Made by a program: the position numbers and the translations under genes
Source: Gammaproteobacteria bacterium 45_16_T64
GTDB taxonomy: Bacteria > Pseudomonadota > Gammaproteobacteria > Pseudomonadales > Ketobacteraceae
Assembly: GCA_002162955.1 (NCBI GenBank)
Contig: MABD01000026.1
Coordinates: forward strand, 1 to 64,000
Reading direction: 5' to 3'
Length of the DNA: 64,000 nucleotides
Shown: piece after piece, positions 19,744 through 59,359 of the stretch
Layout of the letters: each line of letters begins with the position of its first letter
How positions within the stretch are numbered: position 1 is the first letter of the stretch
Notes under the pieces: generated by a model
Seen by the model: only the letters and a program-made list of their open reading frames with translations
Databases searched by the model: none
Told to the model about the DNA's origin: nothing

Positions 19744-21414
19744 TTATTTATTGGTCAATAAGTGTTTGAAAGGTTCATGAATAAGGCGAATTCGATTCAG
19801 TATTGACCAAACCATAAGCAGTATCAATAGGGGCCAATGCATACTTCCAGCCCCTCCACCACCAGAGCTGGAGTCAGCTTCGTTGTTGGATGAACTAGTC
19901 GATTCGGGCGTTTCAGAAACTTCTGTGGAAGTATTATCTGAAGTCGTTGAAGGGGGTGTCTCACTGGGGGGGGTAATGTTATCCAGACTTCTGGTGAGAG
20001 TATTGTTATTGAAATTTACGTCAATGACATTGTCTGGTGTAATTGTGGTGATGCTGTGTGTGGTTGTGAGTTGCTCGCCAGTGATGAGGAGGGTTGTTAG
20101 TATCTCATTTGTTGTGAGAGGATTGTTGAGATTGCATTGGTAGTTCTGCCCTTCATTTGAGATGTCACAACTATTACCACCGATACTTACGCTGGTGAAT
20201 TCCCCTTCAGAATTATCAACTGAACCGGTAACGGAAAGCATGGTGACTGGCTGAAAAATCGACGTGACGGATAGATCAAATTGATCAGTGATTTCACTGC
20301 CTTGTTCGGCTTCATCAACGTTGGTTTCTGCCTCGGAAATAGATAGATCAACTGCAAAATTCATGCATTGATTGATATCGTCGGTTGCACTTATGGTTGA
20401 TTGCATCGAATCCGTTGAGCAAGTTGAAAACTGGCTGGCTGAGGCATTTAATGACGCGGCCATAATAAAGCCAGTACCGCAACTGTCTTCATCATGATCG
20501 GACCCAAAATTATGTCCTATCTCATGTGCGATAACTAGCGCCGTTAATGGGATGTTATTGCCAATAAGTTGAGATGTGCCTGAACTAAAGCCGTTATTGT
20601 TGCAAATAGTGCCTACGTACGCGACGCCGACAGTGCTTCCGTCAAATTCTCGCCCGGTCACGAGATGAAAGATTGCCCTGTTGTTTTTAATAAAAGGAAG
20701 TTGTTGATTTATTTTCTTAGACTGAATGTCACCGAGTAGCGTGGTGGGGTCAGTGCTGGTACTAAATTGCTCACTGTCTAACAGTTCTGTCGTGATTCTA
20801 TCAAAGCCAATATTGAGGTCGTTGATGTAATATCCTTCGACAATATTGAGAATGGAATCTATTTGAGATTCAGTTTCTGAGGCAAAGGTTTGTTGAAAGG
20901 CCAGATCAAATGCCATCTCTAATTCTGCCATCATGCAAACGCCTTCAAGGGTGCCACTACAAAGGCTGTTGTAATCGATGGTTTGTTGCAGCACTGTTTT
21001 GTTTGATAATGATGACAAGTTGTCGTCCAGTGGGCTAGCGCCGCAACTCATTGGTATATTGCTATTTTTCGCGGCGATAGTGGACACCATCAACGTAGCG
21101 TTATTAAAGGTACTATTACTTGGAGTAATGACATGCAGAGTACCGTAGATCGAGAGCACTCCTTGCCATTGTTCATCAATAAGCGAAAGGCGAGCCCAGC
21201 TCTCCGCGTGTTCTTCTAAGGTGCCGATGAAGTGAGTGCTGCCTTCAGTACTTGAATCATAGTGAGGGTGGATTCGGGGGTTGGGTGACAAGGAAGTCTG
21301 ATAAGTGACACCATCGATATTTATCGTAATGGCGTTGCTATTGGTGGCGTTAGCCAAAGTCGATCCTGCTATGAAAACAGTGAAAATAAACATTCTAATA
21401 AATAAAGTACTCAT
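19744..21414 (-). CDS. secreted reprolysin-like zinc metalloprotease with GlyGly-CTERM-type tail
   Basis: The 556-residue protein has a signal peptide (to ~ANA, residue 23). A pro-domain-like region follows (~30-130) with the TLEEHAESWARLSLIDEQW pattern of M12B propeptides. The catalytic domain has HEIGHNFGSDHD (H297, E298, H301, H307) and a nearby Cys set. Residues ~370-480 look like a CARDB-type beta domain. The C-terminus is SSSGGGGAG, a hydrophobic helix, then NRIRLIHEPFK, which fits the GlyGly-CTERM signal cut by rhombosortase after type II secretion. No rhombosortase is in the window. A surface or secreted protease is the likely product. Confidence 0.9.
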   Translation of the reverse strand: MSTLFIRMFIFTVFIAGSTLANATNSNAITINIDGVTYQTSLSPNPRIHPHYDSSTEGSTHFIGTLEEHAESWARLSLIDEQWQGVLSIYGTLHVITPSNSTFNNATLMVSTIAAKNSNIPMSCGASPLDDNLSSLSNKTVLQQTIDYNSLCSGTLEGVCMMAELEMAFDLAFQQTFASETESQIDSILNIVEGYYINDLNIGFDRITTELLDSEQFSTSTDPTTLLGDIQSKKINQQLPFIKNNRAIFHLVTGREFDGSTVGVAYVGTICNNNGFSSGTSQLIGNNIPLTALVIAHEIGHNFGSDHDEDSCGTGFIMAASLNASASQFSTCSTDSMQSTISATDDINQCMNFAVDLSISEAETNVDEAEQGSEITDQFDLSVTSIFQPVTMLSVTGSVDNSEGEFTSVSIGGNSCDISNEGQNYQCNLNNPLTTNEILTTLLITGEQLTTTHSITTITPDNVIDVNFNNNTLTRSLDNITPPSETPPSTTSDNTSTEVSETPESTSSSNNEADSSSGGGGAGSMHWPLLILLMVWSILNRIRLIHEPFKHLLTNK

Positions 21415-32789: not shown

Positions 32790-33578
32790 TTAGAGAAACG
32801 GTGCAGGTTTGACGCTTGTGCCGCCATCTAGATTAATAATGTTTCCTGTTAGATAGCTGCCAGCAGGTGAGCAAAGAAAAATAACCAACCCTTCCATATC
32901 TTCTTGGCTACCAAGTCGCCCTAGCGGTACGGCATCTGCTTGTTGCTTCGCGATAGCGTCATTCTCAAGCACGAACTTAGTCATCTTACTTGGGAACACG
33001 CCTGGCGCGATGGCGTTAACCGTAATTTGTTTGGCCGCTAGTTCGTTGGCTAATATTTGTGTTAGATGATTTAACGCGGCTTTACTTGGACCGTAGGCGT
33101 AGGCCTGCATGCTGCCGGTGAGTTTACCTGCGACGGAGGTGATATTAATCACCCGTGCTGGATCTACTGCAGAGGCGTTTTTTTCTAGCATAGGCAGTAA
33201 TTTTTTTGTCATCGTGAAAGCTGCTTTGACATTGAGGTTGTTTATTTTATCCCACGCCTTATCTGGGTATTCTTCAAGCGGAGCACCCCAGGTTAACCCT
33301 GCGTTATTCACCAATATATCGAGGCAATCTTCGTTTTTTTTCAACGCCTTCACAAGTGCGTCACAACCGTCTTCAGTCGATAGGTCGGCAACGATTGCGG
33401 TGCATTGACCCTGGGCAGATAGTGTGTGCTGTGTATCATCACAAGCCTGTTGTTTACGGGAAGCAACATAGACTTTTGCTCCAGCATTAACGAGGCCTTG
33501 TGCGATCATAAAACCGATACCACTGGTACCGCCCGTAACTAAAGCGACTTTATCTTTGACTGAAAATAGTTGTGACAC
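32790..33578 (-). CDS. short-chain dehydrogenase (RhlG/3-ketoacyl reductase-like)
   Basis: The 262-residue SDR has VALVTGGTSGIG, NNAGLTWGAP, ITSVAGK and YAYGPSK as the catalytic Ser-Tyr-Lys set; VASRKQQ suggests NADP. The C-terminus GNIINLDGG is a typical classical SDR end. It is the last gene of a leftward operon VOC protein - alpha/beta hydrolase - SDR, with gaps of 10 and 25 nt, driven from the promoter that carries the 35525-35543 palindrome. It probably oxidises or reduces an alcohol/ketone intermediate of the catabolic locus. Confidence 0.87.
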   Translation of the reverse strand: MSQLFSVKDKVALVTGGTSGIGFMIAQGLVNAGAKVYVASRKQQACDDTQHTLSAQGQCTAIVADLSTEDGCDALVKALKKNEDCLDILVNNAGLTWGAPLEEYPDKAWDKINNLNVKAAFTMTKKLLPMLEKNASAVDPARVINITSVAGKLTGSMQAYAYGPSKAALNHLTQILANELAAKQITVNAIAPGVFPSKMTKFVLENDAIAKQQADAVPLGRLGSQEDMEGLVIFLCSPAGSYLTGNIINLDGGTSVKPAPFL

Positions 33579-33603
33579 GGTTGTTTACCTCTAAGTGATG
33601 AAT

Positions 33604-34785
33604 TTATTGATCAATGAGTGCGGACTCCCTTAACCAGCGTGCGCAATGATCGACAGCCTCTTTCATTTGTTCCGGTTGACCAAAGTAGTAGTGATTAGCG
33701 CCTTTAATTTCATGCAGTTCTTTGTTGTTATGAGCAATCGCTTGATATAAACGATGAGTATGGCTAGGAGTGCAGGCGTCGTCCGCGCTATTCCCAATCA
33801 CGATGGCGGGAATGCTAATATGTTTGGCGCATTCTACACCATCGGCATGAGAATCGTCATAGCTCCATTGTGACAACCAGGCACGAAGTGTATTAAATCG
33901 AGCGAGTCCTACGGGGCCGTTGTTGACTGTCTTAGGGTTGCCAAGATAGCACCAACCTGCAGGTCGGTCATTGGCATCTAAGCCGGGGTCTAAGAACCGG
34001 GGATCTGCCATGGTTCCGTGCACTACAAACGCAAATTCTTCATGCTCTAAGCCATCGTTCTTAAATTCATCGAGCCGTAGCTTTACCCGCTGAGTGATGC
34101 GTCGGTTGCGCGCTATCTGGGCTTCGCGATAGCGATGTACAAAATCGTCTGTGTAGGGTGGTTGATTGGGGTTGTCTGGGTTATATATATCTAACTCGGG
34201 GTCTTTGTTCGTAGGATTGTCTTCATCTAAGATTGAAGCGTCGAGCCACTCTGTCATCGTGCCTGCTCGGCTTATATGGGCGGCTAGCAACATAATGCCG
34301 TCGGCAGGTATTAGGTTCGCCTGGGTAAGATTTGGAGGGTCTCCAGCGGGGGTACAGGTTACCGTGGGGTTTTCTGCTTGGCTTTGATAATACAGCGATA
34401 AGGAGCCGCCTCCGCTCCATCCTGCCAATATCACTTTTTCATAGCCTAATCGTTGCTTTGCATCCTTGATACAGGCCGCCAGATCGATGACAACTTTTTC
34501 CATGATTAATGCGCTATCAGTACCTCTATAGCGACTATTGCAATAGATTACATGTAACCCTTTTTTGGCTAATGCTGACACCATGGGGAGATAGGCACCA
34601 CCGCCTATGGGATGCATAAAAACAATGACTGTTTTTGACGGTACTTCTTGAGGGCGAAGCAGGTGGGACTCTAATGCTACAAATTCGGATGGCCCTGCGT
34701 AGGTATCCTTAAACGCTGATTTTTCTTGAAACGCAACCATGTAGGGTATGCGGTCATAGGTAAAACTCTTGTTGGCGGTACTCAT
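33604..34785 (-). CDS. alpha/beta hydrolase, serine nucleophile
   Basis: The 393-residue cytoplasmic protein has the serine elbow GWSGGGSLSLYYQ, the oxyanion-side strand VIVFMHPIGGGAYLPMV, and late SIPAIVIGNSADDACTP and GANHYYFGQPEQM motifs that give the Asp and His. It is longer than typical esterases, with an insert of about 100 residues between strands 6 and 7 (region TEWLDASIL to LKLRLDEF). It may cleave an ester or thioester or a carbon-carbon bond. It is the middle gene of the operon with the VOC protein upstream and the SDR downstream. Confidence 0.82.
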   Translation of the reverse strand: MSTANKSFTYDRIPYMVAFQEKSAFKDTYAGPSEFVALESHLLRPQEVPSKTVIVFMHPIGGGAYLPMVSALAKKGLHVIYCNSRYRGTDSALIMEKVVIDLAACIKDAKQRLGYEKVILAGWSGGGSLSLYYQSQAENPTVTCTPAGDPPNLTQANLIPADGIMLLAAHISRAGTMTEWLDASILDEDNPTNKDPELDIYNPDNPNQPPYTDDFVHRYREAQIARNRRITQRVKLRLDEFKNDGLEHEEFAFVVHGTMADPRFLDPGLDANDRPAGWCYLGNPKTVNNGPVGLARFNTLRAWLSQWSYDDSHADGVECAKHISIPAIVIGNSADDACTPSHTHRLYQAIAHNNKELHEIKGANHYYFGQPEQMKEAVDHCARWLRESALIDQ

Positions 34786-34795
34786 GCTGTTGTCC

Positions 34796-35422
34796 TTATT
34801 TTTCTGCTTTTTCAGTCGTATTCTTTGTCATATTGCTCATGTCGATTTTTTGCATATCAATGCCGCGTAGGTCCACCGCGCTCGCACCACACTGTGATAC
34901 TTTTCTTTCTCGGGTTTTTTCTGTCCATTGTCGTAACACGTCATGAGCGCTGGCAGCATCATCTGCCATGATTTCATCATAGCGAGTGTCTTTTGTGGTG
35001 ATTTCGACCTGTATGCCATTGGGGTCATACATATAGATAGAATGGATGAACCCATGATCAATGGGCCCAAAGCATGGACGGCCAGCCTTGTTTATTTTTT
35101 TTCTCCATGCTTTTAGCTCTAGCATGGTATCAACCTCGAAAGCCAGGTGTTGATCAAACCCATGACGAGCAATGAACATTTTTTCATTGACGTCATCGGG
35201 CACATCAAAGAATGCCACAAAATTACCGTCTCCCATTTGAAAGAATAAATGCATATAGTCGATCTTTTTATTGCTGCCGGGTTCTTCGTCGAAAACCATG
35301 GCGGCGCTTAGGGAAAAGCCCAGTACGTCTTCGTAAAACCATCGTGTTTGTTCCGCATCACGACAGCGAAAAGCCATGTGATGAATATGATGTAGTGGGG
35401 TGAGATTCGTTATGGCTGTCAT
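34796..35422 (-). CDS. VOC-superfamily protein (extradiol dioxygenase/glyoxalase-like)
   Basis: The 208-residue product starts at ATG 35422 behind AGGGAGA. It has two VOC modules in ~140 residues: LHHIHHMAFRCRDAEQTRWF, then QHLAFEVDTM, and the metal-binding end MYDPNGIQVEITT. Metal ligands His, His and Glu of the type I extradiol dioxygenase/glyoxalase pattern are visible. The last ~65 residues are unusual and polar. It is the first gene of the leftward operon and sits 103 nt from the shared palindrome at 35525-35543. It may open a ring or isomerise a thiol or ketone adduct; which one is not visible. Confidence 0.8.
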   Translation of the reverse strand: MTAITNLTPLHHIHHMAFRCRDAEQTRWFYEDVLGFSLSAAMVFDEEPGSNKKIDYMHLFFQMGDGNFVAFFDVPDDVNEKMFIARHGFDQHLAFEVDTMLELKAWRKKINKAGRPCFGPIDHGFIHSIYMYDPNGIQVEITTKDTRYDEIMADDAASAHDVLRQWTEKTRERKVSQCGASAVDLRGIDMQKIDMSNMTKNTTEKAEK

Positions 35423-35524
35423 TAATGTTCTCCCTAAAAAGCGTTCGGTACTCTTGTCGTATCTTGAGCGAAGTAAATTTATAAGAATTAAGTTTGCATA
35501 CCATCCTATTGCTGGTTAGATTAA

Positions 35525-35543
35525 TAGTCAATCTATGTTGACC
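35525..35543. promoter_or_regulatory. operator 1 of the catabolic regulon (TAGTCA-N8-TGACC)
   Basis: TAGTCAATCTATGTTGACC lies between the divergent VOC operon and CaiB-type gene, 103 and 54 nt from their starts. It matches the palindromes at 36821, 39763, 40989 and 42485. Binding by the MarR-type protein at 39.9-40.4 kb is inferred. Confidence 0.7.
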
Positions 35544-35596
35544 AAAAAAGATGGTTCAGTGGAGAATTTAAATTTACACATTATTGTGAGGATATT

Positions 35597-36796
35597 ATGC
35601 GAGCACTAGAACACATCACAATTCTTGATTTAACTCACATGTTATCAGGACCTTACGCAACACAGCTGCTAGCTGACATGGGTGCGAATACGATCAAGGT
35701 GGAACCTCCAGGGAAAGGAGAGGCGACGCGACAATTACTGGCAGAAAGTAAACTCTATGGGACCCAAGGTATGGGGGCGTATTTTTTGACGTTGTGTCGC
35801 AACAAAAAAAGTATCGCGATCGACTTAAAAAGTCACGAAGGGGTGGAGATATTTTATCAGTTGGTTGAGCATGCCGATGTGGTGGTAAACAATTTTGGGG
35901 AAGGCGTTCCAGCACGATTAGGCATTGATTTTAATACCCTCAAACAGCGCAACCCCAATATCATTACCTGCTCGATTACAGGTTTCGGTGAAACGGGGCC
36001 TGAGCGAGCCCGCCCCGCATTTGATTTGGTTGCGCAAGGGGTGGGGGGCGGTATGTCTATTACGGGAGAGGAAGGGGGCGCTCCACTACGATCAGGAATT
36101 CCTATTGGTGATCTAGGTGGCGGGATGTTTGCAGCGATCGGTATATTGGGTGCACTGAGCGCAAGAACACAAACGGGTAAGGGGCAGCATATCGATATAT
36201 CGATGCAAGACTGCCAAGTATCGATGCTGAATTATATGGCCACCATGTATTTAATGAGTGGTGTGCAGCCACCGGCTGTGGGTAACGGTCACTTTGTCCA
36301 TGTGCCTTATGGGACTTTTAATACAAAAACTCGACATATTATTGTGGCGTGTATGGGAGATGCATTTTTTATCAAGTTAGCGGCATTGCTAGAGGATCCT
36401 GAATTGCTAGACGAAAAATTTTCTACGCAACCCGAACGTTGGAATCAACGCCATCATATTAATCATCGAGTACAAGTGTGTTTCGAAAAGGAAAGCTGTG
36501 AGTATTGGTTGGAGCTGCTGCGGGAGCATAGAATCCCCGCCGCTCCGGTCAATGACTTTTCTCACGCATTAACCGATGCTCAAATCGTTTACCGAGATAT
36601 GGTCGTACCAGTTGAGTTGAGTGATGGAGAGATTGTGAACCAGCCGGGGAACCCGATTAAATATTCGGATACCTATGAGGATATTTTTTCTGCTCCACCA
36701 ACACTAGGTCAGCAAACGGATGAGGTGATGACAAGTTTACTTAATTACGAGATAAGTCAGGTGATTGATCTAAAAAACAAAGGAATCCTTTCTTAG
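35597..36796 (+). CDS. CaiB/BaiF-type CoA-transferase (family III)
   Basis: The 399-residue protein starts at ATG 35597 behind GAGGA. It shows the family III pattern: ILDLTHMLSGPYATQLLADMGA at the N-terminus, RNKKSIAIDLKS, and ITGFGETGPE. The catalytic aspartate is D172 (IGDLGGGMF). It moves CoA between an acyl-CoA and a free acid, so it could activate or recycle the locus's acid substrate. A palindrome like that at 35525 is found both upstream and downstream of the gene. It is monocistronic or the first gene of a short run. Confidence 0.9.
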   Translation: MRALEHITILDLTHMLSGPYATQLLADMGANTIKVEPPGKGEATRQLLAESKLYGTQGMGAYFLTLCRNKKSIAIDLKSHEGVEIFYQLVEHADVVVNNFGEGVPARLGIDFNTLKQRNPNIITCSITGFGETGPERARPAFDLVAQGVGGGMSITGEEGGAPLRSGIPIGDLGGGMFAAIGILGALSARTQTGKGQHIDISMQDCQVSMLNYMATMYLMSGVQPPAVGNGHFVHVPYGTFNTKTRHIIVACMGDAFFIKLAALLEDPELLDEKFSTQPERWNQRHHINHRVQVCFEKESCEYWLELLREHRIPAAPVNDFSHALTDAQIVYRDMVVPVELSDGEIVNQPGNPIKYSDTYEDIFSAPPTLGQQTDEVMTSLLNYEISQVIDLKNKGILS

Positions 36797-36820
36797 GAAG
36801 ACAATACGCGCAAAATGTAA

Positions 36821-36839
36821 GGTCAACATAGTTGACTAG
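36821..36839. promoter_or_regulatory. operator 2 of the catabolic regulon (perfect GTCAAC-ATA-GTTGAC core)
   Basis: GGTCAACATAGTTGACTAG lies 25 nt after the CaiB stop and 151 nt before the FadL start. The core GTCAAC-ATA-GTTGAC at 36822-36836 is a perfect dyad and the best copy of the set, so it is the most likely high-affinity site. Confidence 0.75.
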
Positions 36840-36990
36840 GTTGGTGGATGGATTATACCGTAAGGGAAATGGAATAAAAGGAAAGAAAAATTACTACGCT
36901 GTCGAAACCATCAAGGCTTCGATCCATAGCGGGGCGCTGTTTTCCTAATTCTTTTTGCTCAACCTAACAATAATAAGAAAGGATGACGTC

Positions 36991-38631
36991 ATGATGGAAT
37001 ATCGAATGCGCGGTCTTCACTATTCTATACCTACAGTTATTGTGATATCTATCTTGAATGCTAGGGAGGCACAAGGTGCATTGATTGAAAATCTGACCGT
37101 TGGAAATGCCAAGGCTCTGGCATTAGGTCATGCGGTGACGGCGGATCCCCCCGGGATTGATTCGGTTCATTTTAATCCGGCAGGGCTAGCAAAACTTAGC
37201 GGTGAACAGCGGCAGATAAAATTGATTGTGGGCAGTTTTGATATTCGCGTAGATTTTGGTGAGCACGATCCCATTGTGGATCAATATTTTAGTGATGCTT
37301 ATGCGGCTGACGCAGTGCCCGCTGGAACGTTTGATGATCCGGTGGTGAATACCACCAGTCGAACTTCGGGGGCTGCGTTTGTGTTACCTGGGGAAGGCTT
37401 GGTAAAGTTGCCCGCTATTGTTGCGCCTTTAGGGGGAGCTTCTTATCAAGCCCCGGGCTCTAAGGTCACCTTTGCTACTAATGTGTATAGTCCAACCGCA
37501 GCAGGGTATTATCGTGACAAGGATGATCCCGGTCGATTCTTGGGGGAGGAGGTCTCTTTTTCCCGTATTACTTACTTCTCTCCTTCTGTGGGTGTTCAAG
37601 TTACCGATACTTTGAGTGTTGGGGCGTCTCTGGGGTTTTCGTACCAAGGGGTTGGTGTGGGGATGACCTTGCGGGTGCCTAACGTGGGTTTGGTTTTTGC
37701 CGAAGGGCTTGCCAAAGCGGTATGCGAACAAGATGTCCCCGCGATTAATTTTTGTGGTGGGCATGTTGGACCTTATACCGAAGTGTCCGGGCTGGAATTA
37801 GAAGCGGAAGAAGTACTGTCGACAACCTTTAATTTAGGTGTGTTATGGGAGCCAACGGCTTGGTTGGCGCTGGGGTTTACTTATCAAAGCGGTGCTACTG
37901 ATACACTGAAGGGCAGTTATAAGGTGTCATACGATAGTAATTGGTCTGGTATGTGGCAGCAGTTACGTCAAGATAACGCAGGAGCGGTGCTAACGGACCT
38001 GACAGCAGCGCTAGGGTTTCCGTTACCCTATGGGGAAACTGTCGAGAAAGGCGATGTAGAGGTTGAATTACCGACTCCAGCGCACTATGCGGTGGGTATT
38101 AGTGTTCAGTTAACACCGGCTATTAAGGTCAATGTTGATTATAAGATGTCGGATTGGCAGGTATGGGAAGATTTAGAGATAACCTTTGATCAGGATGTGG
38201 ATTTTTTGCAATTGGCACGAATCGTTCAGCCTTCGGCAGCGGAGATGCGGGTGTTAAGGATGCCAATGCAATTTGAAAATGTGTGGAATTGGGGAGTTGG
38301 CATTGAATACCAATATTCAGATAATCTGGCGCTGAGATTGGGTTATGAGCCGCGGCCTTCTTCGATTCCTGAGGATAAACATACGGTATTGCTACCGGTT
38401 GGTGATGGTGAACTGTATGCAACAGGTCTTAGCTACCAGTTTGATGCTAATGAGACGTTGGATCTGTCACTTGCCTATTTTAGTGCAACACGCTCAACCG
38501 CCGCGGGAAAGAGTGATACGTCTAACAGTTTGAATCAGTACTTGTTTATCTATAATCCTTATATGGGCACGGATTACGATTCTGACGTTACAGCGATTAT
38601 CTTTGCCTTAAGTTATCAGTCGAAATTTTAG
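36991..38631 (+). CDS. FadL/TodX-family outer-membrane hydrophobic-compound transporter
   Basis: The start is ATG 36991, behind AAAGGA, giving 546 residues; an upstream frame to 36955 is not needed. A signal peptide to about AQG (residue 31) is followed by the FadL hallmark: ENLTVGNAKALALGHAVTADPPGIDSVHFNPAGLAKL. The rest is aromatic-rich beta-barrel ending in Phe. FadL proteins pass long-chain fatty acids, alkanes or aromatics into the cell. An operator-like palindrome lies upstream, so uptake is probably coregulated with the CoA-transferase and hydrolases. Confidence 0.92.
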   Translation: MMEYRMRGLHYSIPTVIVISILNAREAQGALIENLTVGNAKALALGHAVTADPPGIDSVHFNPAGLAKLSGEQRQIKLIVGSFDIRVDFGEHDPIVDQYFSDAYAADAVPAGTFDDPVVNTTSRTSGAAFVLPGEGLVKLPAIVAPLGGASYQAPGSKVTFATNVYSPTAAGYYRDKDDPGRFLGEEVSFSRITYFSPSVGVQVTDTLSVGASLGFSYQGVGVGMTLRVPNVGLVFAEGLAKAVCEQDVPAINFCGGHVGPYTEVSGLELEAEEVLSTTFNLGVLWEPTAWLALGFTYQSGATDTLKGSYKVSYDSNWSGMWQQLRQDNAGAVLTDLTAALGFPLPYGETVEKGDVEVELPTPAHYAVGISVQLTPAIKVNVDYKMSDWQVWEDLEITFDQDVDFLQLARIVQPSAAEMRVLRMPMQFENVWNWGVGIEYQYSDNLALRLGYEPRPSSIPEDKHTVLLPVGDGELYATGLSYQFDANETLDLSLAYFSATRSTAAGKSDTSNSLNQYLFIYNPYMGTDYDSDVTAIIFALSYQSKF

Positions 38632-38646
38632 TGGTTGAAAAGGGGG

Positions 38647-38674
38647 GCTGCCATCACCGTTCATGGGAGGCAGC
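38647..38674. terminator. weak hairpin between convergent genes
   Basis: GCTGCC (38647-38652) and GGCAGC (38669-38674) form a 6-bp stem with a 16-nt loop between the FadL and CrtC-like stop codons. No T tract is present, so this is a tentative call. Confidence 0.35.
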
Positions 38675-38690
38675 ACTGAAGGTTAGTGAC

Positions 38691-39734
38691 TTAGCAGGTA
38701 ATGCCGACGGGTTTGCCGTCGACCATCTGATCCAAGTACTCAGACATGCCGTAACCTTGTTGACCATCGCAATGAAATACACTCATGGCTTCCGTGATAC
38801 GTGTGTTGAGAAAGTTACCATCGGGTAATGTGCGTCGGTTACGCAAGGGGATAAGAGACAGAGATTTACCACTCACCGTATATTCCCGCTCGTGAGTCTT
38901 TAGCCATATTTCTTGGCCGATTGCTTGATTCTGGGCATCGAGAGTTGAGGTGATAGTGGCATCTTCGATAAGTACATAATCTTTGTCACCATATTCGTCC
39001 ATGCGTAACACCATGCCCCACACATATTGCTTGCCTGTTGCCATGGTGACGACGGAGATATTCATCGCAAAATCTTCTGAGAAACACATGGGTAGCCAAC
39101 GGTACCAATAAAGGTTTTGCCAGTATCGAGGCCCCCAGGAATGATCGCGCATACCCAACCCATTAATAGGGTAATGCTCGGCACCTATTTGAATAACACC
39201 TTCGGCTTTCATATGCTGCTCATAGTGAGCACGGGCAAAAGATTCTTCGGGGGCTTCTTCGATAGGCTTACCGTTATCATCCACCATTTCTCCGCCATAG
39301 ACGGGGGCGATATTAAAAAAATCGATGGATATTTTTGTATTTACTTTGGGATTTGCGGAGAACGCTTGTTTGGGGTTATCCATATCCTGGGGGGTGTTCA
39401 AAACGCACAGCTCACCTTCATAAGTCACTCTAAGGTGTTTGAACGGGGATATAACCGAAAATTTCATCCCTCCGCTGTCAAGAGCCTCGTTATGGGTTAA
39501 TGTTGGACGCTGAAACATAAACCCAACGCGTCCGTCTGGCAGATAAACGCAACAGGACATTTCAGCATGCCCCTCATTGGGACGGTTACCGACACGAAAC
39601 CAGCCTCCCATTTTTGTTTCGTGGTCAAAACAATTGATATACATGCTTTCATTGAAATTACTGACATCTTCAATAGGATGCATATATTCATCATGCGGAT
39701 TGAGGCGAATATTGGTGTTGTTACCTAGGTCCAT
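38691..39734 (-). CDS. CrtC/AttH-like lipocalin-fold protein of unknown function (DUF7064-like)
   Basis: The 347-residue cytoplasmic protein is strand rich. The pattern GLGMRDHSWGPRYWQ and repeated Trp-rich strands recall the two-domain lipocalin fold of carotenoid hydratase CrtC and AttH, and of proteins called DUF7064/7065. Those proteins bind hydrophobic polyenes or terpenoids. No signal peptide is visible. The gene lies 29 nt from the palindrome at 39763, immediately divergent from the MarR-type gene, and convergent with FadL. An intracellular carrier, hydratase or isomerase of a hydrophobic substrate is possible. Confidence 0.75.
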   Translation of the reverse strand: MDLGNNTNIRLNPHDEYMHPIEDVSNFNESMYINCFDHETKMGGWFRVGNRPNEGHAEMSCCVYLPDGRVGFMFQRPTLTHNEALDSGGMKFSVISPFKHLRVTYEGELCVLNTPQDMDNPKQAFSANPKVNTKISIDFFNIAPVYGGEMVDDNGKPIEEAPEESFARAHYEQHMKAEGVIQIGAEHYPINGLGMRDHSWGPRYWQNLYWYRWLPMCFSEDFAMNISVVTMATGKQYVWGMVLRMDEYGDKDYVLIEDATITSTLDAQNQAIGQEIWLKTHEREYTVSGKSLSLIPLRNRRTLPDGNFLNTRITEAMSVFHCDGQQGYGMSEYLDQMVDGKPVGITC

Positions 39735-39762
39735 GACGTATTCTCGTGTAATATTTATATAA

Positions 39763-39781
39763 GGTCAACATTGATGACTAG
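39763..39781. promoter_or_regulatory. operator 3 of the catabolic regulon
   Basis: GGTCAACATTGATGACTAG lies 29 nt upstream of the CrtC-like start and 121 nt from the MarR start. It differs from the perfect copy at 36821 by two bases. Direct TTGAC half sites also occur near 39845 and 39856, closer to the MarR gene, which suggests autoregulation. Confidence 0.7.
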
Positions 39782-39901
39782 TTGTTCACGTTAACATAGT
39801 TTATTTGCTCTGTGTATAGGTAATGAAGTGGCAAATTCTATTAATTGACCGGAAATTGACTTAAAATCGTGCTCATTCATCCGCGGTAGAATTGTAAAAT
39901 T

Positions 39902-40405
39902 ATGAGTAAACAAGCATCTTCGAAAGCAAATGGAGCCACCGGCATCGATAAGGAATATGACCAGTGGTTAGAAGGCAGTGGGTACAACATGATGGAGCTG
40001 CTGCTGAATGCCTATTATTGGTTTGATGAGAGTTTACAGAACCTGATTGATGAAAAAGGCTGGCCGCCAGTGACACGCTCTCAGTCGGTAATATTTGTCC
40101 ATCTAAGCCAGGGGCGAAATAGAACAGTCGATATTGCCAAGCATATGGGGGTGAGTAAGCAGGCAGTCAATCGCTCGGTAAATGAATTGGTTAGTCTTGG
40201 GTTGTTAAAGCTGTCTACCGATCCTACGGATAAACGTGCGAAGATCGTGACGCCCTCTGCAAAGGGCAAACAAATTGCTGAGTATGCGTTGAAGGCACTG
40301 GTCAGGATTGAAAAGGAAATGAATGCCCGCATTGGAGCCAATGCAGGCAATGAATTAAGAAATCTATTGGGCCGCGATTGGGGCGAACCTTTAGACAAGT
40401 ATTAG
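39902..40405 (+). CDS. MarR-family transcriptional regulator, likely regulator of the locus
   Basis: The 167-residue protein has a helical dimer arm, then TRSQSVIFVHLSQGRNRTVDIAKHMG with the winged-helix reading head SKQAVNRSVNELVSLGLL. The wing DPTDKRAKIVTPSAKG matches the MarR DxRxxx pattern. An N-terminal extension of ~50 residues precedes the canonical domain. Five similar palindromes lie in promoters around it, so it is the best candidate to bind them and to sense an aromatic or acyl-CoA ligand. The gene is convergent with a membrane protein gene; their ends overlap by 4 nt. Confidence 0.9.
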   Translation: MSKQASSKANGATGIDKEYDQWLEGSGYNMMELLLNAYYWFDESLQNLIDEKGWPPVTRSQSVIFVHLSQGRNRTVDIAKHMGVSKQAVNRSVNELVSLGLLKLSTDPTDKRAKIVTPSAKGKQIAEYALKALVRIEKEMNARIGANAGNELRNLLGRDWGEPLDKY

Positions 40406-40926
40406 AACGGTTTTACTATCGCAAGAAATAAGACAGTGGGTACCGAGTATTGAATGACAGGAGTGGTTAGTTGAAAGAATCGCCAATGAATATGGATAAA
40501 GCGCTCATATTTTTCAGGTTGATTGCTTTTTCTTATGGTGTATTTGTTACCGCCGAAATGTGATAAGTAATAGTCCGCAATTTCTATCGGAATAAACAGC
40601 AGTAAAACGATGCTCAGTTTTACCATTAGCCAATTGGCGTCCATGTTCCAATTCCCTAACCAGTAAAGTAATGGCCCAGTGATCATGATGATCGGGAATG
40701 CGGTATGTTCAATTACCGCGCCACGGTCAAATTGCTCAAATGCCCAATTTCTACGTCTTACAAGTTCTTCGTTCTCTGGATGTTTTTTCCATTTTAGATA
40801 CGCCGCTTTTGCAAACCATAGGTAAGCGACAGTTGTGCTCCAAGACCACATCATCACAAAGAACAAATGAATAAATTTAATGTAAATATAATAAGGCGTG
40901 AGTAATTCTCTAACGAGCTCTGTCAT
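40402..40926 (-). CDS. four-TM membrane protein with basic loops
   Basis: The 174-residue protein has hydrophobic segments at ~13-38, 75-92, 101-120 and 150-170. Conserved-looking histidines (FIHLFFVMMW, IEHTAFPII, IHIHWRFFQL) recall small haem-binding or copper-type membrane proteins such as CopD/DUF2269, but no family is assigned. GGAG lies ~10 nt before the ATG. A 28-bp palindrome of the locus's operator type lies 63 nt upstream at 40989-41016. It may supply electrons to an oxygenase of the pathway. Confidence 0.7.
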   Translation of the reverse strand: MTELVRELLTPYYIYIKFIHLFFVMMWSWSTTVAYLWFAKAAYLKWKKHPENEELVRRRNWAFEQFDRGAVIEHTAFPIIMITGPLLYWLGNWNMDANWLMVKLSIVLLLFIPIEIADYYLSHFGGNKYTIRKSNQPEKYERFIHIHWRFFQLTTPVIQYSVPTVLFLAIVKPF

Positions 40927-40988
40927 GATAAGACTGACTCCATCGGCTACGATTCATGATTGATGAAGTTAATGCTACGCTGTTTTCA

Positions 40989-41016
40989 GATATAGTCAAC
41001 GATAGGTGACTATATC
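40989..41016. promoter_or_regulatory. operator 5 of the catabolic regulon, 10-bp perfect arms
   Basis: GATATAGTCA (40989-40998), an 8-nt spacer and TGACTATATC (41007-41016) form a perfect dyad. It contains TAGTCA and TGACTA as in the other operators. It overlaps the DUF6285 stop codon and lies 63 nt upstream of the membrane protein gene. A role as a terminator is less likely because no T tract follows. Confidence 0.65.
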
Positions 41017-41417
41017 TTTGTCGCATCTTCTTGTGCGTTATACAGCTGTTTGTAGGTGCTGTATTTGGGGTTGTCCACGGATAGTTTCCCAAGGGTTGTT
41101 TGTTGTAAGTGTCGCTGTAAATCTGGATCGTCATAGGCGATGCGATTTTCCCGTATTGCCAGTGTTAACCATTGGTTGAGTTCTGCCAGTGTTCCTTGTC
41201 GGTCTAATAAGTGTTGTAAACGCAAGTTTTCTTGTTGATTCAACGCATTACCTAAGGTGAGTTCACGCTCAACGATTTTTAGAATATTCGATGCGATGCG
41301 CATGTTAAGCGTAGCGGCGCCATTGGCTTTTTCTGAGTCCGTAACGTGAATGCAGTCTTGCAGGTATTCTTGTGTCGATTGGATGAGCTCAATCGTAGTG
41401 GGGCGGTCAAATGGCAT
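41010..41417 (-). CDS. DUF6285-like small protein, partner of the APH-type kinase
   Basis: The 135-residue helical protein starts at ATG 41417, inside the last codons of the kinase gene (11-nt overlap), a sign of translational coupling. It shows FDRPTTIELIQSTQEYLQD, then LNMRIASNILKIVERELTL and helical repeats to LAIRENRIAYDDPDLQRHL, the DUF6285 pattern. Small proteins of this kind sit beside acyl-CoA-linked phosphotransferases. In Pseudomonas putida levulinate catabolism a small protein (LvaB) is needed with the kinase LvaA. A similar accessory role is inferred. Confidence 0.8.
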   Translation of the reverse strand: MPFDRPTTIELIQSTQEYLQDCIHVTDSEKANGAATLNMRIASNILKIVERELTLGNALNQQENLRLQHLLDRQGTLAELNQWLTLAIRENRIAYDDPDLQRHLQQTTLGKLSVDNPKYSTYKQLYNAQEDATKI

Positions 41418-42432
41418 GAGACATATCCTTGCTGGTTGTTTTGCCTGTAGCGTTTACTAGCTGAAGTAAGTCAATTTCTGTTTCGGATACACGCCTGCCG
41501 ATTGCCGCGCGTTCCATGGAACGTATTTTTCCGGTAAGGTGACTAAAGCACTGGAAAAGACAAATAACGCCCCATTTTAACGTGCCAAATATCTCCCAAA
41601 AGTGAATGGCCGCCTCATCTATCTCAACGTCGTTTTGTTTCCGGTAGGTTTGGTAGAACTCGTCTCTTTTACCGAACCCACCTATGGGATTGTGGGGGTT
41701 GCCAAAGCGCCAGGAATTGACACATAACCAGCCGATATCTTCCATTGGGTCACCTATATGCGTGAGCTCCCAATCAAGTATTCCGCAAATACCTTGTCTA
41801 TCCACCATGAAATTCCCATGTCGGAAATCACCGTGAACCAGGGCGGGAGTGACCGAGCGGGGAATGTGCTCTCTTAACCAGCAAAAGGCGACGTCAAAGA
41901 CAGGTTGGTATTGCTCATAAGAACGGTAGAGATTAAAGAGCTCTTCTACCTGAGCTGTGGCGGTAAGGTTAGGCAAAGGGGGCAGGGTATCAAGCGGTGT
42001 TGTATGGATGCGTGCTAGTAACGTGCCACACTGCGCGGTCATATGTTCTCGTGCCACCGAAAAGGTATCTTGTTTTAGGATTTTCTGAGGAATACTCTCG
42101 CCCTCGATTCGATCCATTACATAGCCATGTCCAAGCTGATCGATCTCCTCCAAAATGAAACGCACTCTTGGTGCGATAACACCGTTAGCCACCGCTGCTT
42201 GCTGCACTAATGCTTCGGTCTTTTTGGAGACGGCGGTTGAAATGTTCTCATCCAGGGCAAGTCGCCGCAAAATGAGCGGTTGTTCCCCCTGCTCAGTGAT
42301 GACGTCAAATTTCCACGTGTCAGCGGATGAACCGGCAGTAAGGGGTTGTAGATCACGAATAGATGCTGTGGGGTGAAGGTATCGCCGAACGCTGGAAGTT
42401 AATGATGCTTTGAAGGTAGAGGAGTGTGGCAT
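41407..42432 (-). CDS. APH-family phosphotransferase (ACAD10/LvaA-like hydroxyacyl-CoA kinase candidate)
   Basis: The 341-residue protein has the aminoglycoside phosphotransferase/ACAD10 fold: a nucleotide-binding lobe with LILRRLALDENI, GYVMDRIEGESIPQ, and the catalytic loop LVHGDFRHGNFMVD followed by ILDWELTHIGDPMEDIGWL. HGD(x)4N and DWE are the catalytic and magnesium sites. Members near acyl-CoA genes phosphorylate 4-hydroxyacyl-CoA. The DUF6285 gene overlaps its end. A 14-bp hairpin covers its start codon and an operator of the locus lies 53 nt upstream. No acyl-CoA dehydrogenase partner is encoded nearby. Confidence 0.88.
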   Translation of the reverse strand: MPHSSTFKASLTSSVRRYLHPTASIRDLQPLTAGSSADTWKFDVITEQGEQPLILRRLALDENISTAVSKKTEALVQQAAVANGVIAPRVRFILEEIDQLGHGYVMDRIEGESIPQKILKQDTFSVAREHMTAQCGTLLARIHTTPLDTLPPLPNLTATAQVEELFNLYRSYEQYQPVFDVAFCWLREHIPRSVTPALVHGDFRHGNFMVDRQGICGILDWELTHIGDPMEDIGWLCVNSWRFGNPHNPIGGFGKRDEFYQTYRKQNDVEIDEAAIHFWEIFGTLKWGVICLFQCFSHLTGKIRSMERAAIGRRVSETEIDLLQLVNATGKTTSKDMSHAI

Positions 42433-42466
42433 GTTGAGATTTTCCGTCGGGAGAAAATCTCAACAT
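42431..42466 (-). promoter_or_regulatory. 14-bp leader hairpin overlapping the kinase start codon
   Basis: ATGTTGAGATTTTC (42431-42444) and GAAAATCTCAACAT (42453-42466) are perfect complements with an 8-nt loop. On the minus-strand mRNA the AU of the AUG start closes the stem, and no Shine-Dalgarno is free between. It could restrain translation of the kinase or define a very short leader. The sequence shows the structure; function is inferred. Confidence 0.6.
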
Positions 42467-42484
42467 AGCATGGCCCCTGATCAA

Positions 42485-42503
42485 GGACAACAATGTTGAC
42501 TAA
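42485..42503. promoter_or_regulatory. operator 4 of the catabolic regulon
   Basis: GGACAACAATGTTGACTAA lies 53 nt upstream of the kinase start. It matches the copy at 36821 at 15 of 19 positions, with one change in the dyad core (GACAAC-AAT-GTTGAC). It probably controls the kinase/DUF6285 operon. Confidence 0.65.
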
Positions 42504-48965: not shown

Positions 48966-51896
48966 ATGTTGAAGTCGTTGTATATGAAATTTACAGTTCT
49001 GTTACCTGCCATTGCATGGTTGGCCGCGTGTGGTGGAGGAGGTCCCGGAATTGATGAAGAAGGCAGTGGTGCCGGTGGTGCTGATATAGCGATTGCTTAT
49101 ATTAAACGCACGTTACCAACGAATCCAGAATTGTCCGCTCCCACAGAATCGCTGATGGATTTTGAATCATTCCGAGAAGGCAGTGCGGGAGTATTTATTC
49201 GTAATACCGCAGGTGAGCATCGCATTACTCCTGCAACGGGTGATTATGACATTCGACAGTTGACCGTTAATTATGACGCCTCATCGTTATTATTTGCAAT
49301 GCGTGGGCCTCTATTACCATTAGCAACAGAAGAAGGGGAAGATGACCCTGTACAACCTGCGTGGGGATTATGGGAATACGCTGTCGATACGCAAAGTTTA
49401 GTGCAGATTACTACCGGTGATTCGGTTAACCATATTCACGATATTGACCCAGTCTATTTGTCAGATAATCGAATTCTATTTTCTTCCTCGCGCCAAGAAA
49501 CGACCATGAGAACATTGGGTGATGAAGGGAAAGTACAATACCGTCATTTACCTGATGATGTTAATGACGATGACGAAGGTGAAAGAACCTTTAATTTACA
49601 TATCCTGGGAACCAGTCGAAATATCGATTTTGCAAAGCAGGTAACGTTTAACCAAAGTCATGATTTTAACCCCTCCATGATGGCGGATGGACGAGTGCTC
49701 TTTAGTCGTTGGGATAAAAATGATGCAGACGCGGTCAGCGTTTATCGGATGAACCCAGACGGTAGCGGCGTAGAACTATTATTTGGCCATAACAGCCCCA
49801 ATGTGGGTTTAAAAGTGGATGCGGAAGCAGACCCCGCAACCCGTTACGCGCGGCCAAAAGAACTTGCTGACGGACGAATACTGGTGGAGCTGAAATTTGA
49901 TAATGAAGTGGACCAGTCTTATCCTCAGTATGCGATTTTGAACGTGGAAAACTATATCGATGAGACCGTTGCGGTGCCGGGTGGTGGTGGCACGGCGGTT
50001 GAATTAGGCTATTTGGGGTATAACCAGACTTTGCCTTCTGTGCCGAATATTGCTGGGCGCCTCAGTAGCGCGGTACCAACAGATGATGGCACCGGGCGCA
50101 ATGTTATTAGTCTAAATCTGTGTCATGTGCTGGTTGGTGGTGAGCTGCAAGTGTGTACCAATGATAATTTGAGTGGTGACAATGTCGTTCAAGCGGATCT
50201 ACGTTATCAGCTATTTATGGAAGACCCTGCTAATAATACACGATCTGTATTGTTAGATAATCCAGAAGAGGGGGTGTATTACAAGGACCTTGTTGTCGTA
50301 AAAGCATCGACCTCGCCGAGCTTTATTGCAGAGACGGTAGATACTGGGGATGCTGACTTGGTCGCTGATGGCTGGGGGTTGTTACATATTCGGAGTGTTT
50401 ATAATCTTGATGGTACTTTTGGTGGAGGCGCAGCTGCTGCAACAACACTGGCGGATATGAAGGATCCAACTATTGTTGGCGTTGATGAGCGTCCCGCACG
50501 TTTCTTACGAATATCCCGCCGTGTACCGCAATGGGACGAAAATACCCGAGAAGTCGACAATGACTTTTTACAGGGTGATGGCTCAGGGATGAAAGAAATA
50601 TTGGGCTACGCAGAGATTGAGCCTGATGGTTCTGTCATGACGCGTGTTCCGGCAGATGTTGCATTTTCATTTAGCATGGTTGATGCACAAGGAGTTCGCA
50701 TCAGCTTTGGTGGAAGAAGTGCGAGACATGATAACTGGGTTCATGTAAGACCCGGCGAAACACTAACTTGTACCGGTTGCCATAATAATGGTGATGCAGT
50801 CGCTCATGGTCGCTCTGGCGCGCTTGATACCGTCAATACCGGAGCTCCCGCGAGTGGTTATCCAAATACCGATCCAGCGATGGCAACTGAATTTGCTGAA
50901 ACCATGGCGCAAACCCGTGCGCGTTTGGATAATACCTACACTACGCTGTCTGCAGATTTCGTGTTTGATGATGTGTGGGGAGAGCCTGGTAGTAAAGTCA
51001 CAGGCTTTAGTTATACCTTAAGTGATATGGTGGCGTCATTTGATGCTGAAGATATTAGTTACTTGCCGCCAGTAAACTTCCAATCTTGTGTAGATGAGTG
51101 GCGTTCTAATTGCCGGATGATTATTAATTATGAGACCCATATCCACCCTATCTGGAGTAAGCCTCGATTAGTATTGGATCCTATGGACTCTGCGGTGGTG
51201 TTGGAAGATCACACCTGTGTTAGCTGCCACAACCATCAGCCGGATCCAGCTAATGCCGATGACCCGAGGACAGCCGGCAATTCCCATGATCTAGAAATAC
51301 CGGATGATAATTCGCCTCCGATTCAGCAGCTCTATCTTGGGGATGATGGTGATATAGCAGCGGTCTTGAGTGTTAATAACAACAATGATCGATATGAAGC
51401 GTACGACTTCCTTCGAGCAAATCATCCCCGTGGCGTTGTTGCTGGGGGTGCGCTAATGGCTCAAATATCTGATGATATTGTGTTTAGCCCAATTCAGGCA
51501 GTGGATGGTGACGGTGCACCTATTTTTGATGAGGATGGTGCTCCGGTGTTTACTGACGTTTGTGAACAAGACGACGCGACTGCCGCTCGAGCATTGCTGT
51601 TACGCGGTTCGCTGACCGCCGGTAATGCAGGAGGTACCCGTGTATCAATGATTCAGAGGGGGCTGAATAATGACCCTTGTGCTGCCTATTATACTGTTGA
51701 CCCCCTTGCTGCCTCCTACAATGTGGCGAGAAGTTTCTTCACCAAGATGGAAAGCGCCCCTAATGCGGATTTTGCCACCAATCCTGAGCTCGACCATCGG
51801 GATTGGTTAACGGGAACAGAGTTGAAATTACTACGTGAGTGGATGGATATGGGGGGGCAATATTTCAACAATCCGTTTGATGCACCTTCGGATTAG
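48966..51896 (+). CDS. hydrazine-synthase-alpha-like c-heme lipoprotein with beta-propeller
   Basis: The 976-residue lipoprotein starts at ATG 48966 behind AAAAGG; M7 is an alternative. The lipobox is LAAC (C22), followed by a Gly/Ser linker. Residues ~60-340 hold TolB/PD40-like propeller strands, for example IHDIDPVYLSDNRILFSSSR and FNPSMMADGRVLFSRWDKN, with a RMNPDGSG segment. Two CxxCH motifs are CTGCH (602-606) and CVSCH (751-755). The layout of propeller plus two hemes resembles the alpha subunit of hydrazine synthase; such HzsA-related proteins occur outside anammox bacteria with unknown roles. No beta/gamma subunits are seen. Confidence 0.78.
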   Translation: MLKSLYMKFTVLLPAIAWLAACGGGGPGIDEEGSGAGGADIAIAYIKRTLPTNPELSAPTESLMDFESFREGSAGVFIRNTAGEHRITPATGDYDIRQLTVNYDASSLLFAMRGPLLPLATEEGEDDPVQPAWGLWEYAVDTQSLVQITTGDSVNHIHDIDPVYLSDNRILFSSSRQETTMRTLGDEGKVQYRHLPDDVNDDDEGERTFNLHILGTSRNIDFAKQVTFNQSHDFNPSMMADGRVLFSRWDKNDADAVSVYRMNPDGSGVELLFGHNSPNVGLKVDAEADPATRYARPKELADGRILVELKFDNEVDQSYPQYAILNVENYIDETVAVPGGGGTAVELGYLGYNQTLPSVPNIAGRLSSAVPTDDGTGRNVISLNLCHVLVGGELQVCTNDNLSGDNVVQADLRYQLFMEDPANNTRSVLLDNPEEGVYYKDLVVVKASTSPSFIAETVDTGDADLVADGWGLLHIRSVYNLDGTFGGGAAAATTLADMKDPTIVGVDERPARFLRISRRVPQWDENTREVDNDFLQGDGSGMKEILGYAEIEPDGSVMTRVPADVAFSFSMVDAQGVRISFGGRSARHDNWVHVRPGETLTCTGCHNNGDAVAHGRSGALDTVNTGAPASGYPNTDPAMATEFAETMAQTRARLDNTYTTLSADFVFDDVWGEPGSKVTGFSYTLSDMVASFDAEDISYLPPVNFQSCVDEWRSNCRMIINYETHIHPIWSKPRLVLDPMDSAVVLEDHTCVSCHNHQPDPANADDPRTAGNSHDLEIPDDNSPPIQQLYLGDDGDIAAVLSVNNNNDRYEAYDFLRANHPRGVVAGGALMAQISDDIVFSPIQAVDGDGAPIFDEDGAPVFTDVCEQDDATAARALLLRGSLTAGNAGGTRVSMIQRGLNNDPCAAYYTVDPLAASYNVARSFFTKMESAPNADFATNPELDHRDWLTGTELKLLREWMDMGGQYFNNPFDAPSD

Positions 51897-59348: not shown

Positions 59349-59359
59349 GATCTGTTTCC

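Follow-up and report, generated by a model that had tools for sequence, protein, structure and literature searches.

Five related palindromes lie between the genes of one cluster in Gammaproteobacteria bacterium 45_16_T64, which raises the questions of whether they join these genes into a single regulon, which regulator acts on them, and what the encoded proteins do. The cluster is located in a 64,000-nucleotide (nt) stretch of contig MABD01000026.1 (referred to as the window) and encodes an operon of VOC, hydrolase, and SDR proteins, a CaiB-type CoA-transferase, a FadL-type transporter, a DUF7064 protein, a MarR-family regulator, a predicted membrane protein (mem174), a DUF6285 protein, and an APH-type kinase. 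The explanation that we consider reasonably likely as a whole is a catabolic regulon for a hydrophobic compound: the five palindromic dyads lie over predicted −35 boxes, and the local MarR protein would bind them, repress the genes behind them, and be released by a compound of the pathway, which may include a dehydration step carried out by a kinase and a lyase.

Five related dyads in the promoter gaps of the cluster

The initial annotation had placed five palindromes in this region, and all of them are present, 1 to 4 bases from the positions given; the observation is confirmed. The perfect GTCAAC-ATA-GTTGAC that it had singled out at 36822 to 36836 is exactly there. Its TAGTCA/TGACC pattern, taken literally as TAGTCA-N6-9-TGACC, fits three of the five dyads (0.06 expected by shuffling), whereas a shared form, TAGTCAAC-N3 or N4-GTTGACTA, fits all five with 1 to 3 mismatches of 16. 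All five are in promoter gaps between 35.4 and 42.6 kb, as had been claimed; a sixth core dyad (20020 to 20034) is located within the gene at 19744 to 21414. The five dyads are as follows.

35525 to 35544, no strand: dyad 1, TAGTCAATCTATGTTGACCA, spacer N4; 102 nt to the VOC start (minus strand) and 52 nt to the CaiB start (plus strand); identical in the same-genus genome G002
36820 to 36838, no strand: dyad 2, AGGTCAACATAGTTGACTA, spacer N3; FadL start 152 nt downstream
39762 to 39780, no strand: dyad 3, AGGTCAACATTGATGACTA, spacer N3; DUF7064 gene 27 nt away and divergent MarR gene 121 nt away
40993 to 41012, no strand: dyad 4, TAGTCAACGATAGGTGACTA, spacer N4 (N3 in G002); mem174 66 nt downstream; overlaps the stop codon of the DUF6285 gene (41010 to 41012)
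42484 to 42502, no strand: dyad 5, AGGACAACAATGTTGACTA, spacer N3; APH kinase 51 nt downstream

Dyad distribution in the window and the genome

We searched the five gaps, which were those named by the initial annotation and not picked independently, for half-sites with a partner at a spacing of 3 or 4 and at most 1 mismatch, supplying no motif and using 2,000 dinucleotide shuffles for comparison. The half-site GTCAAC was common to all five gaps, and every other half occurred in one gap; across the shuffles, the best sharing was zero gaps once, one gap 1,844 times, two gaps 154 times, and three gaps once. With the 12-base core (at most 1 mismatch, spacer of 3 or 4), the window contains six sites, namely, the five dyads and 20020 to 20034, against 1.18 expected from mononucleotide shuffles.

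A scan of the whole genome (6.49 Mb), as the initial annotation had suggested, did not find the motif spread at one random density. At up to 3 mismatches, 41 sites had the N3 spacer (43 for a backward-pattern control) and 14 had the N4 spacer (36 for the control), so the count is at the background level with the five window dyads included, yet 5 of the 55 matches crowd into one 7-kb stretch. Taken alone, this clustering count is circular because the consensus was derived from these same sites. A matrix built from nine sites of other genomes placed the five dyads at ranks 1 to 5 of the 55 (20.8 to 24.4 bits, with the next at 18.5 bits). Since orthologous sites from the sister species make up five of the nine, a matrix of four sites from another genus is the cleaner test, and it too ranked the five dyads 1 to 5 in the window; its four sites had been found by scanning with the window motif, at a score whose expectation is about 0.1 per 20 kb.

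The match at rank 6 (18.5 bits; G000:C38:172789, where G000 is the genome studied) lies before a FadL paralog and was dropped as a candidate sixth operator, the best relatives in G001, G002, and G003 having no dyad; G000 carries 18 matches to the FadL family of this candidate. Of 11 further G000 matches above 16 bits, the 8 inspected (L011, L121, and L140 being left out) comprised 5 within a long open reading frame (ORF) (L134, L020, L026, L016, and L122) and 3 that were not (L128, L036, and L010). Second-pattern matches in G000 (25 and 29 at up to 2 mismatches) fall outside this matrix scoring, and the counts for some other genomes are lower bounds.

Conservation of the dyads and identity of the regulator

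In genome G002, whose contig is also listed as CAJXXT010000095.1 and enters the counts a single time, the gene set from SDR through APH is retained together with the five dyads. Its proteins are 94% identical to those of the window for MarR, 89 to 95% for SDR, hydrolase, VOC, CaiB, FadL, DUF7064, and mem174, 75% for DUF6285, and 73% for APH. In the five gaps, two of which were trimmed at the far end, substitutions between the window and G002 affected 1 of 79 half-site positions, 6 of 16 spacer positions, and 123 of 547 flanking positions (Fisher P value = 2.4e-7).

The association extends to another genus, in which MarR and mem174 genes adjoin tail to tail in four genomes (G007, G011, G012, and G014; 45 to 48% and 57 to 62% identity, respectively) and the dyad precedes mem174 in all four. 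Besides these two, FadL (35 to 37%) was the only window cluster protein matched in the 19-kb stretches concerned, where a cytochrome P450 and a 3-beta-HSD-like epimerase are found nearby. Genome-wide in G007, G011, and G012, TRGTCAAY-N4-RTTGACYA with at most 1 mismatch occurs only in the promoters of mem174 and DoxX_2, the latter about 50 nt away; in G014, among the matches listed, the two loci inspected are the same mem174 and DoxX promoters. The six MarR proteins from genomes with the TAGTCAAC-type dyad form one clade (support 99/96, with some deep branches unsure), and in all six genomes with a MarR of this clade the dyad stands before mem174, in its TAGTCAAC form next to that MarR gene.

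Several observations weigh against assigning the dyads to the local MarR. Of 12 mem174 loci, 6 have the dyad, 2 (G008 and G010) have a GTCAAT variant, and 4 (G009, L084, L085, and L086) have none before mem174; among these four, the MarR of G009 and L086 belongs to another clade and none was detected in L084 and L085. G008 and G010 carry the variant dyad between mem174 and DoxX, yet no window-clade MarR was detected in them. Finally, a MarR paralog, 42% identical, exists in the same genome (G000:C29).

We weighed the alternative that the dyads are operators of another regulator, such as the contig 29 paralog or an unseen protein, with the local MarR as a bystander or site-sharer. The recognition helices of the paralog and the local MarR are similar, and in G008 and G010, where the variant dyad reads TGTCAAT-N3-ATTGACA or differs from this at one terminal base, the MarR matches are paralog-type or weak. 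Against this, 15 stretches around MarR paralogs (97.7 kb summed; two lie inside two others, and L051 represents a MarR outside the paralog clade) contained no core dyad at up to 1 mismatch, and the TAGTCAAC form is beside the local-clade gene in 6 of 6 genomes. We regard this alternative as improbable.

The remaining loci add detail. G009, which belongs to the same other genus, groups mem174 with a DoxX-like gene and a MarR from a different clade but has no such dyad; G013 has no DoxX match and, for MarR, the paralog only. A DoxX-like gene adjoins mem174 in L084, G008, and G010, the match in G008 containing a stop codon. Inverted repeats were sought before the genes of G009 (L073), Solimonas (L086), and L084, and nothing convincing was found. 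A variant-dyad scan of eight genomes returned a few matches, mostly inside ORFs among the eight inspected. Two further sites were seen: in L085 (14389 to 14407), TAGTCAACACAGTTGATTA, a strong dyad that lies 4 kb from mem174 and about 140 nt ahead of a 947-amino-acid (aa) ORF, no window-type MarR being detected at the locus, and at G010:C78:11510 (L236), a second copy of the G010 variant dyad, AGTCAATATAATTGACA, directly before a 276-codon ORF.

Overall, the dyads are quite probably the operators of one regulon under the MarR encoded at 39902 to 40405. This protein is the most likely regulator, the dyad being kept in the sister species, tracking the MarR clade in another genus, and being absent around the paralogs looked at. 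The part of the earlier proposal that lists the MarR gene itself among the controlled genes is not well supported, as dyad 3 is farther from marR than from the divergent DUF7064 gene and, at four other-genus loci (L069 to L072), only the mem174 dyad is strong.

Predicted promoters and a model for repression

MarR-family catabolic repressors are typically small winged-helix proteins encoded beside their targets, with palindromes over the −35 box and catabolic genes under their control. Each window dyad likewise overlaps a predicted −35 box.

35503 to 35531, minus strand: predicted VOC-operon promoter, TTGACT-17-TAGGAT, −35 within dyad 1
35538 to 35567, plus strand: predicted CaiB promoter, TTGACC-18-GAGAAT, −35 within dyad 1
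36832 to 36859, plus strand: predicted FadL promoter, TTGACT-16-TATACC, −35 within dyad 2; not listed by the consensus scan
39740 to 39768, minus strand: predicted DUF7064-gene promoter, TTGACC-17-GAGAAT, −35 within dyad 3
40972 to 40999, minus strand: predicted mem174 promoter, TTGACT-16-TAGCAT, −35 within dyad 4
42462 to 42490, minus strand: predicted APH-DUF6285 promoter, TTGTCC-17-TATGTT, −35 within dyad 5; not listed by the consensus scan

We extended this comparison to 17 dyad promoters (six from the window, eight from the other genus, and three with the variant dyad). The gene-proximal half of the dyad contains TTGAC or a similar sequence, and the best −10 match 16 to 18 nt from this half averaged 3.76 of 6, compared with 2.63 of 6 at control distances. 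A 4-of-6 match at this distance is present in 14 of the 17, the remaining three being the variant-dyad sites, which makes coverage of the −35 box the best model: MarR likely represses by occupying it.

This model has difficulties of its own. A consensus promoter scan gave 21 hits versus 18.8 in shuffles, not above expectation, and listed only four of the six window promoters named here. Position and motif are not independent, because a half of the dyad 2 type, TTGAC, is by itself the −35 consensus. Spacers of 3 and 4 are both present, which is unusual for a rigid dimer; both seem to be tolerated, as the dyad 4 spacer measures 4 in the window but 3 in G002. The repeated element might be mainly a −35 box with a chance or hairpin-forming mirror half and no operator at all, a reading that would account for the 14 promoters with one dyad half at −35 distance and to which the weak terminator-like hairpin score of dyad 2 also lends itself. 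However, both halves are conserved, with the single half-site substitution noted above, the full dyad occurs in all five gaps, and a promoter box alone would not confine dyads to the cluster and the mem174 and DoxX promoters; this reading is very unlikely.

Repression by the local MarR through the −35 box would resemble the known systems in the winged-helix protein beside its presumed targets, the palindromic sites over the predicted −35 boxes, and the catabolic genes. The window differs from them in having two dyad spacings, sites before six transcription units, and no clear autoregulation. A literature text search for a MarR with a GTTGAC inverted repeat and CoA returned nothing related.

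Cluster genes and candidate substrates

The genes behind the dyads belong to the following families.

32790 to 33578, minus strand: SDR oxidoreductase, third gene of the VOC operon (Pfam PF13561)
33604 to 34785, minus strand: alpha/beta hydrolase, 393 aa (Pfam PF12146/PF00561; no PDB match at 1e-3)
34796 to 35422, minus strand: VOC protein (glyoxalase/dioxygenase superfamily), 208 aa (Pfam PF00903; PDB 9u42, E 1.8e-28)
35597 to 36796, plus strand: CaiB-type family III CoA-transferase (Pfam PF02515)
36991 to 38631, plus strand: FadL/OmpP1-type outer-membrane transporter (Pfam PF03349; ATG start chosen, mechanical ORF from 36955)
38691 to 39734, minus strand: DUF7064/DUF7065 protein with an AttH/CrtC-like fold, possible phospho-lyase (Pfam; fold and profile)
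39902 to 40405, plus strand: MarR-family regulator, 167 aa (Pfam PF12802, 42.6 bits, cutoff 27; PF01047, 27.3 bits, cutoff 24.6)
40402 to 40926, minus strand: mem174, predicted four-helix protein, probably of the membrane (weakly HemJ/UPF0093-like, below the cutoff)
41010 to 41417, minus strand: DUF6285 protein, probable kinase partner (Pfam PF19802)
41407 to 42432, minus strand: APH-type kinase (Pfam PF01636; motif HGDFRHGN...LDWE intact; ACAD11 and relatives in PDB)

Two more-specific assignments fell below their cutoffs. As HemJ (UPF0093), mem174 scored 15.6 bits with Pfam PF03653 versus a cutoff of 34.2, with no NCBIfam match and no PDB fold match at E 0.001; designed helical bundles lead its list by Z score, with heme-b proteins among the rows, in a range common for helical bundles. 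As a catechol 2,3-dioxygenase, the VOC protein scored 25.8 bits with the NCBIfam equivalog TIGR03211 versus a cutoff of 320.2. A structure search with the DUF6285 protein returned a single PDB match (E 0.012) of unrelated name. FadL/FilD-type transporters are strongly expanded (E 1e-30) in this genome (18) and in its sisters G001 (16), G002 (16), and G003 (19), with 4 in the less complete G004.

The initial annotation had proposed uptake, CoA activation, and degradation of a hydrophobic compound. This is plausible from FadL and CaiB and rests on protein families; literature text searches for the identity of the compound returned nothing to the point. An assignment to the terpenoid, steroid, or aryl compounds is doubtful. 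As for the ester, lactone, or terpenoid-like substrate suggested earlier, VOC-hydrolase pairs are found repeatedly on plasmids close to genes of the FAD-dependent oxygenase type, so that cleavage of a ring is no less likely than hydrolysis of an ester or lactone. Homologs of the hydrolase are uncommon (4 of 369 genomes of the class at E 1e-20 and 13 of 398 of the phylum at 1e-40, this genome being counted in both). Among 39 plasmid records with a hydrolase match, VOC and hydrolase genes are direct neighbors in three of four regions inspected, each with an FAD-dependent monooxygenase or oxidoreductase within a few kilobases; in pJE1, one gene separates the two. The Neorhizobium, Variovorax, and Bosea plasmids thus resemble the window in a VOC gene neighboring a homologous hydrolase, but they differ in their regulators (others in Neorhizobium and Bosea, a distant MarR without a convincing dyad in Variovorax), and no CaiB, FadL, or kinase is annotated in these stretches. 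The genome studied also has a second, distant VOC-hydrolase pair (L095, 9200 to 11043; G000:C53), with 27% and 31% identity.

These neighborhoods also bear on the possibility that the regulon is real but serves another chemistry, with VOC and hydrolase in aromatic meta-cleavage, the kinase and DUF6285 acting in the manner of the Pseudomonas putida lva operon on a 4-hydroxyacyl-CoA, and the DUF7064 protein serving as a hydratase or isomerase on an unphosphorylated compound. The plasmid pairs beside FAD-dependent enzymes are in its favor, as is an alphaproteobacterium-like genome (G619, of the same phylum but a different class) in which MarR is followed by an HsaA/HpaH-like monooxygenase on the other strand, then a core dyad, and then VOC. 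We consider this set of activities a lesser possibility, to be weighed below with the evidence on the kinase and the DUF7064 protein.

Related gene sets occur in L084 (hydrolase-VOC, SRPBCC-CaiB-DUF7064-APH-DUF6285, DoxX, and mem174) and in Solimonas terrae (L086; APH-DUF6285-hydrolase-MarR-VOC-mem174). The L084 contig (JAVHYE010000117.1) is titled Pedobacter, with cluster proteins 31 to 71% identical to those of the window, possibly a binning error.

Possible dehydration by a kinase and a lyase

The DUF7064 protein had been described as CrtC-like. It has an AttH/CrtC-type fold, its one sequence relative in PDB is 25-phosphosteroid lyase, and its gene pairs with that of the kinase. In Foldseek, this lyase held ranks 1, 2, 4, 5, and 6 (best E 9.2e-9), with a pericyclase at rank 3 (2.5e-8), and with a three-sequence profile no other PDB sequence scored below E 0.1 (lyase matches at 6.8e-5 and 2.1e-4). 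It also has the highest identity (18%) within the Z list of hydratases, pericyclases, and lyase that share the fold. The motif G-x-R-D-x-S-W-G-x-R is kept in all five DUF7064 homologs checked, and the lyase has G-S-R-D-R-S-W-G-V-R.

Gene pairing points in the same direction. A plasmid collection contained 14 records with a DUF7064 homolog at 15 places (the best place per record was taken), and with the window kinase as the sole query, a relative was found in all 14 stretches, 17 to 7,599 bases from the DUF7064 gene at its nearest match, versus 1 of 34 control stretches. The controls, of 17 to 21 kb, were non-random, having been fetched for other reasons, and three places occur twice; the single control match, L086, is itself a relative of the window cluster, and the query missed an APH-family gene that Pfam shows in control L110. 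Independent plasmid cases number about nine because some records are near-duplicates (two Pseudonocardia, two Cupriavidus, and four close Rhodococcus). DUF7064 homolog and kinase are adjacent in L084, and intact kinase motifs are present in the window, L084, Variovorax, and Pseudonocardia. Pfam identified DUF6285 genes in the window, in Variovorax VAI-C, and in Thermus, and BLAST did so in L084, L086, two Cupriavidus records, Variovorax PDNC026, and, weakly, Embleya (E 4e-5); in Sulfitobacter and Pseudonocardia, Pfam did not assign the small proteins encoded next to the kinase to DUF6285.

Three points count against a lyase. The match by profile is a weak one (i-Evalue of the best domain, 0.003), the structure model of the DUF7064 protein has a mean pLDDT of 61, and, by Z score, hydratase and pericyclases (14.5 to 12.8) outrank the lyase (12.4 to 12.1), the first unrelated row being at 7.6. 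Kievitone hydratase tops this list, as the other chemistry introduced above would have it, and the kinase matches ACAD11 and relatives in PDB; 9fsg also matches, at E 0.0021. In Thermus pTT27, the APH-DUF6285 pair, found also in Variovorax, occurs with an acyl-CoA dehydrogenase, an SDR, and a histidine phosphatase. On the other hand, no acyl-CoA dehydrogenase is present among the cluster genes, and the proximity of DUF7064 homolog and kinase in 14 of 14 plasmid records and their adjacency in L084 speak for a joint step. LvaB, the small protein of the lva operon, presumably belongs to DUF6285. The P. putida operon, with its LvaA kinase, LvaB, and LvaC, and the related ACAD10/11 are described in PMC6692424 and PMC12440821; the operon resembles the window in a kinase with a small partner protein and CoA-bound catabolism, but the window cluster lacks an LvaC-type acyl-CoA dehydrogenase and an LvaE-type ligase and has CaiB, VOC, hydrolase, and DUF7064 genes.

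The closest precedent for dehydration is Sterolibacterium denitrificans, in which a phosphotransferase-type 25-hydroxysteroid kinase and a separate C-O lyase carry out ATP-dependent dehydration (PMC8449060, PMC11061730). In the passages of PMC8449060 at hand, the kinase is called little similar to known phosphotransferases, no lyase candidate is given near its gene, and the two-enzyme reaction is described for steroid side chains, the other ATP-dependent dehydration named being that of hydrated NAD(P)H by a single enzyme. The DUF7064 protein shares with this lyase (PDB 9fzn, 9g2i, and 9g4c) the fold, weak profile similarity, and the G-x-R-D-x-S-W-G-x-R motif. It differs in its low identity (18%); moreover, the window kinase and DUF7064 genes share dyads, a DUF6285 partner is present, and no molybdenum C25 hydroxylase is found among the cluster genes. 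On the basis of the fold, the weak similarity by profile, and the pairing of the genes, we tentatively propose, with confidence a little short of even, that kinase, DUF6285, and DUF7064 proteins form an ATP-dependent dehydration module.

Other features of the window

A 976-aa protein (48966 to 51896) matches the hydrazine synthase alpha middle domain (Pfam PF18582, 53.3 bits, cutoff 26.6), with an NCBIfam score of 43.6 bits, far under 800. Close to it are two uncharacterized proteins, of 543 aa and 903 aa; the larger one has a laminin-G-like domain and matches c-type cytochromes below the cutoff. At 57387 to 61549, a molybdopterin oxidoreductase gene adjoins a gene for a fused 4Fe-4S and DmsC-like protein.

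Proposed pathway and its meaning

In the regulon that we favor, a dimer of the MarR protein would bind the five dyads and cover each −35 box, shutting off the operons for VOC-hydrolase-SDR and kinase-DUF6285 as well as CaiB, FadL, mem174, and the DUF7064 gene; a compound of the pathway would release the dimer. FadL would then import the hydrophobic compound, VOC and hydrolase may open it oxidatively, and CaiB would attach CoA. The APH kinase with DUF6285 may phosphorylate a hydroxyl group, from which the DUF7064 protein would eliminate the phosphate, amounting to ATP-dependent dehydration.

As a MarR catabolic regulon, this system appears ordinary in kind and unusually well supported for a case built on sequence alone, and it brings a specific new enzymatic hypothesis. 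We speculate further that DUF7064/DUF7065 proteins are phospho-lyases that act together with an APH kinase, and often with DUF6285 as a small partner, in an ATP-dependent module for dehydrating alcohols that is widely distributed, from Proteobacteria to Actinomycetota. In this bacterial family, the module would have come under a MarR regulon built around an older core of two small membrane proteins, mem174 and a DoxX-like protein, which perhaps deliver electrons to the oxygenase. The analysis provides an operator map with cross-species support for an unstudied MarR protein and gives the DUF7064/7065 and DUF6285 families a concrete hypothesis, the dehydration of alcohols by kinase and lyase. 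If this is true, catabolic clusters of Rhodococcus, Variovorax, Cupriavidus, and Sulfitobacter would gain an assignable step.

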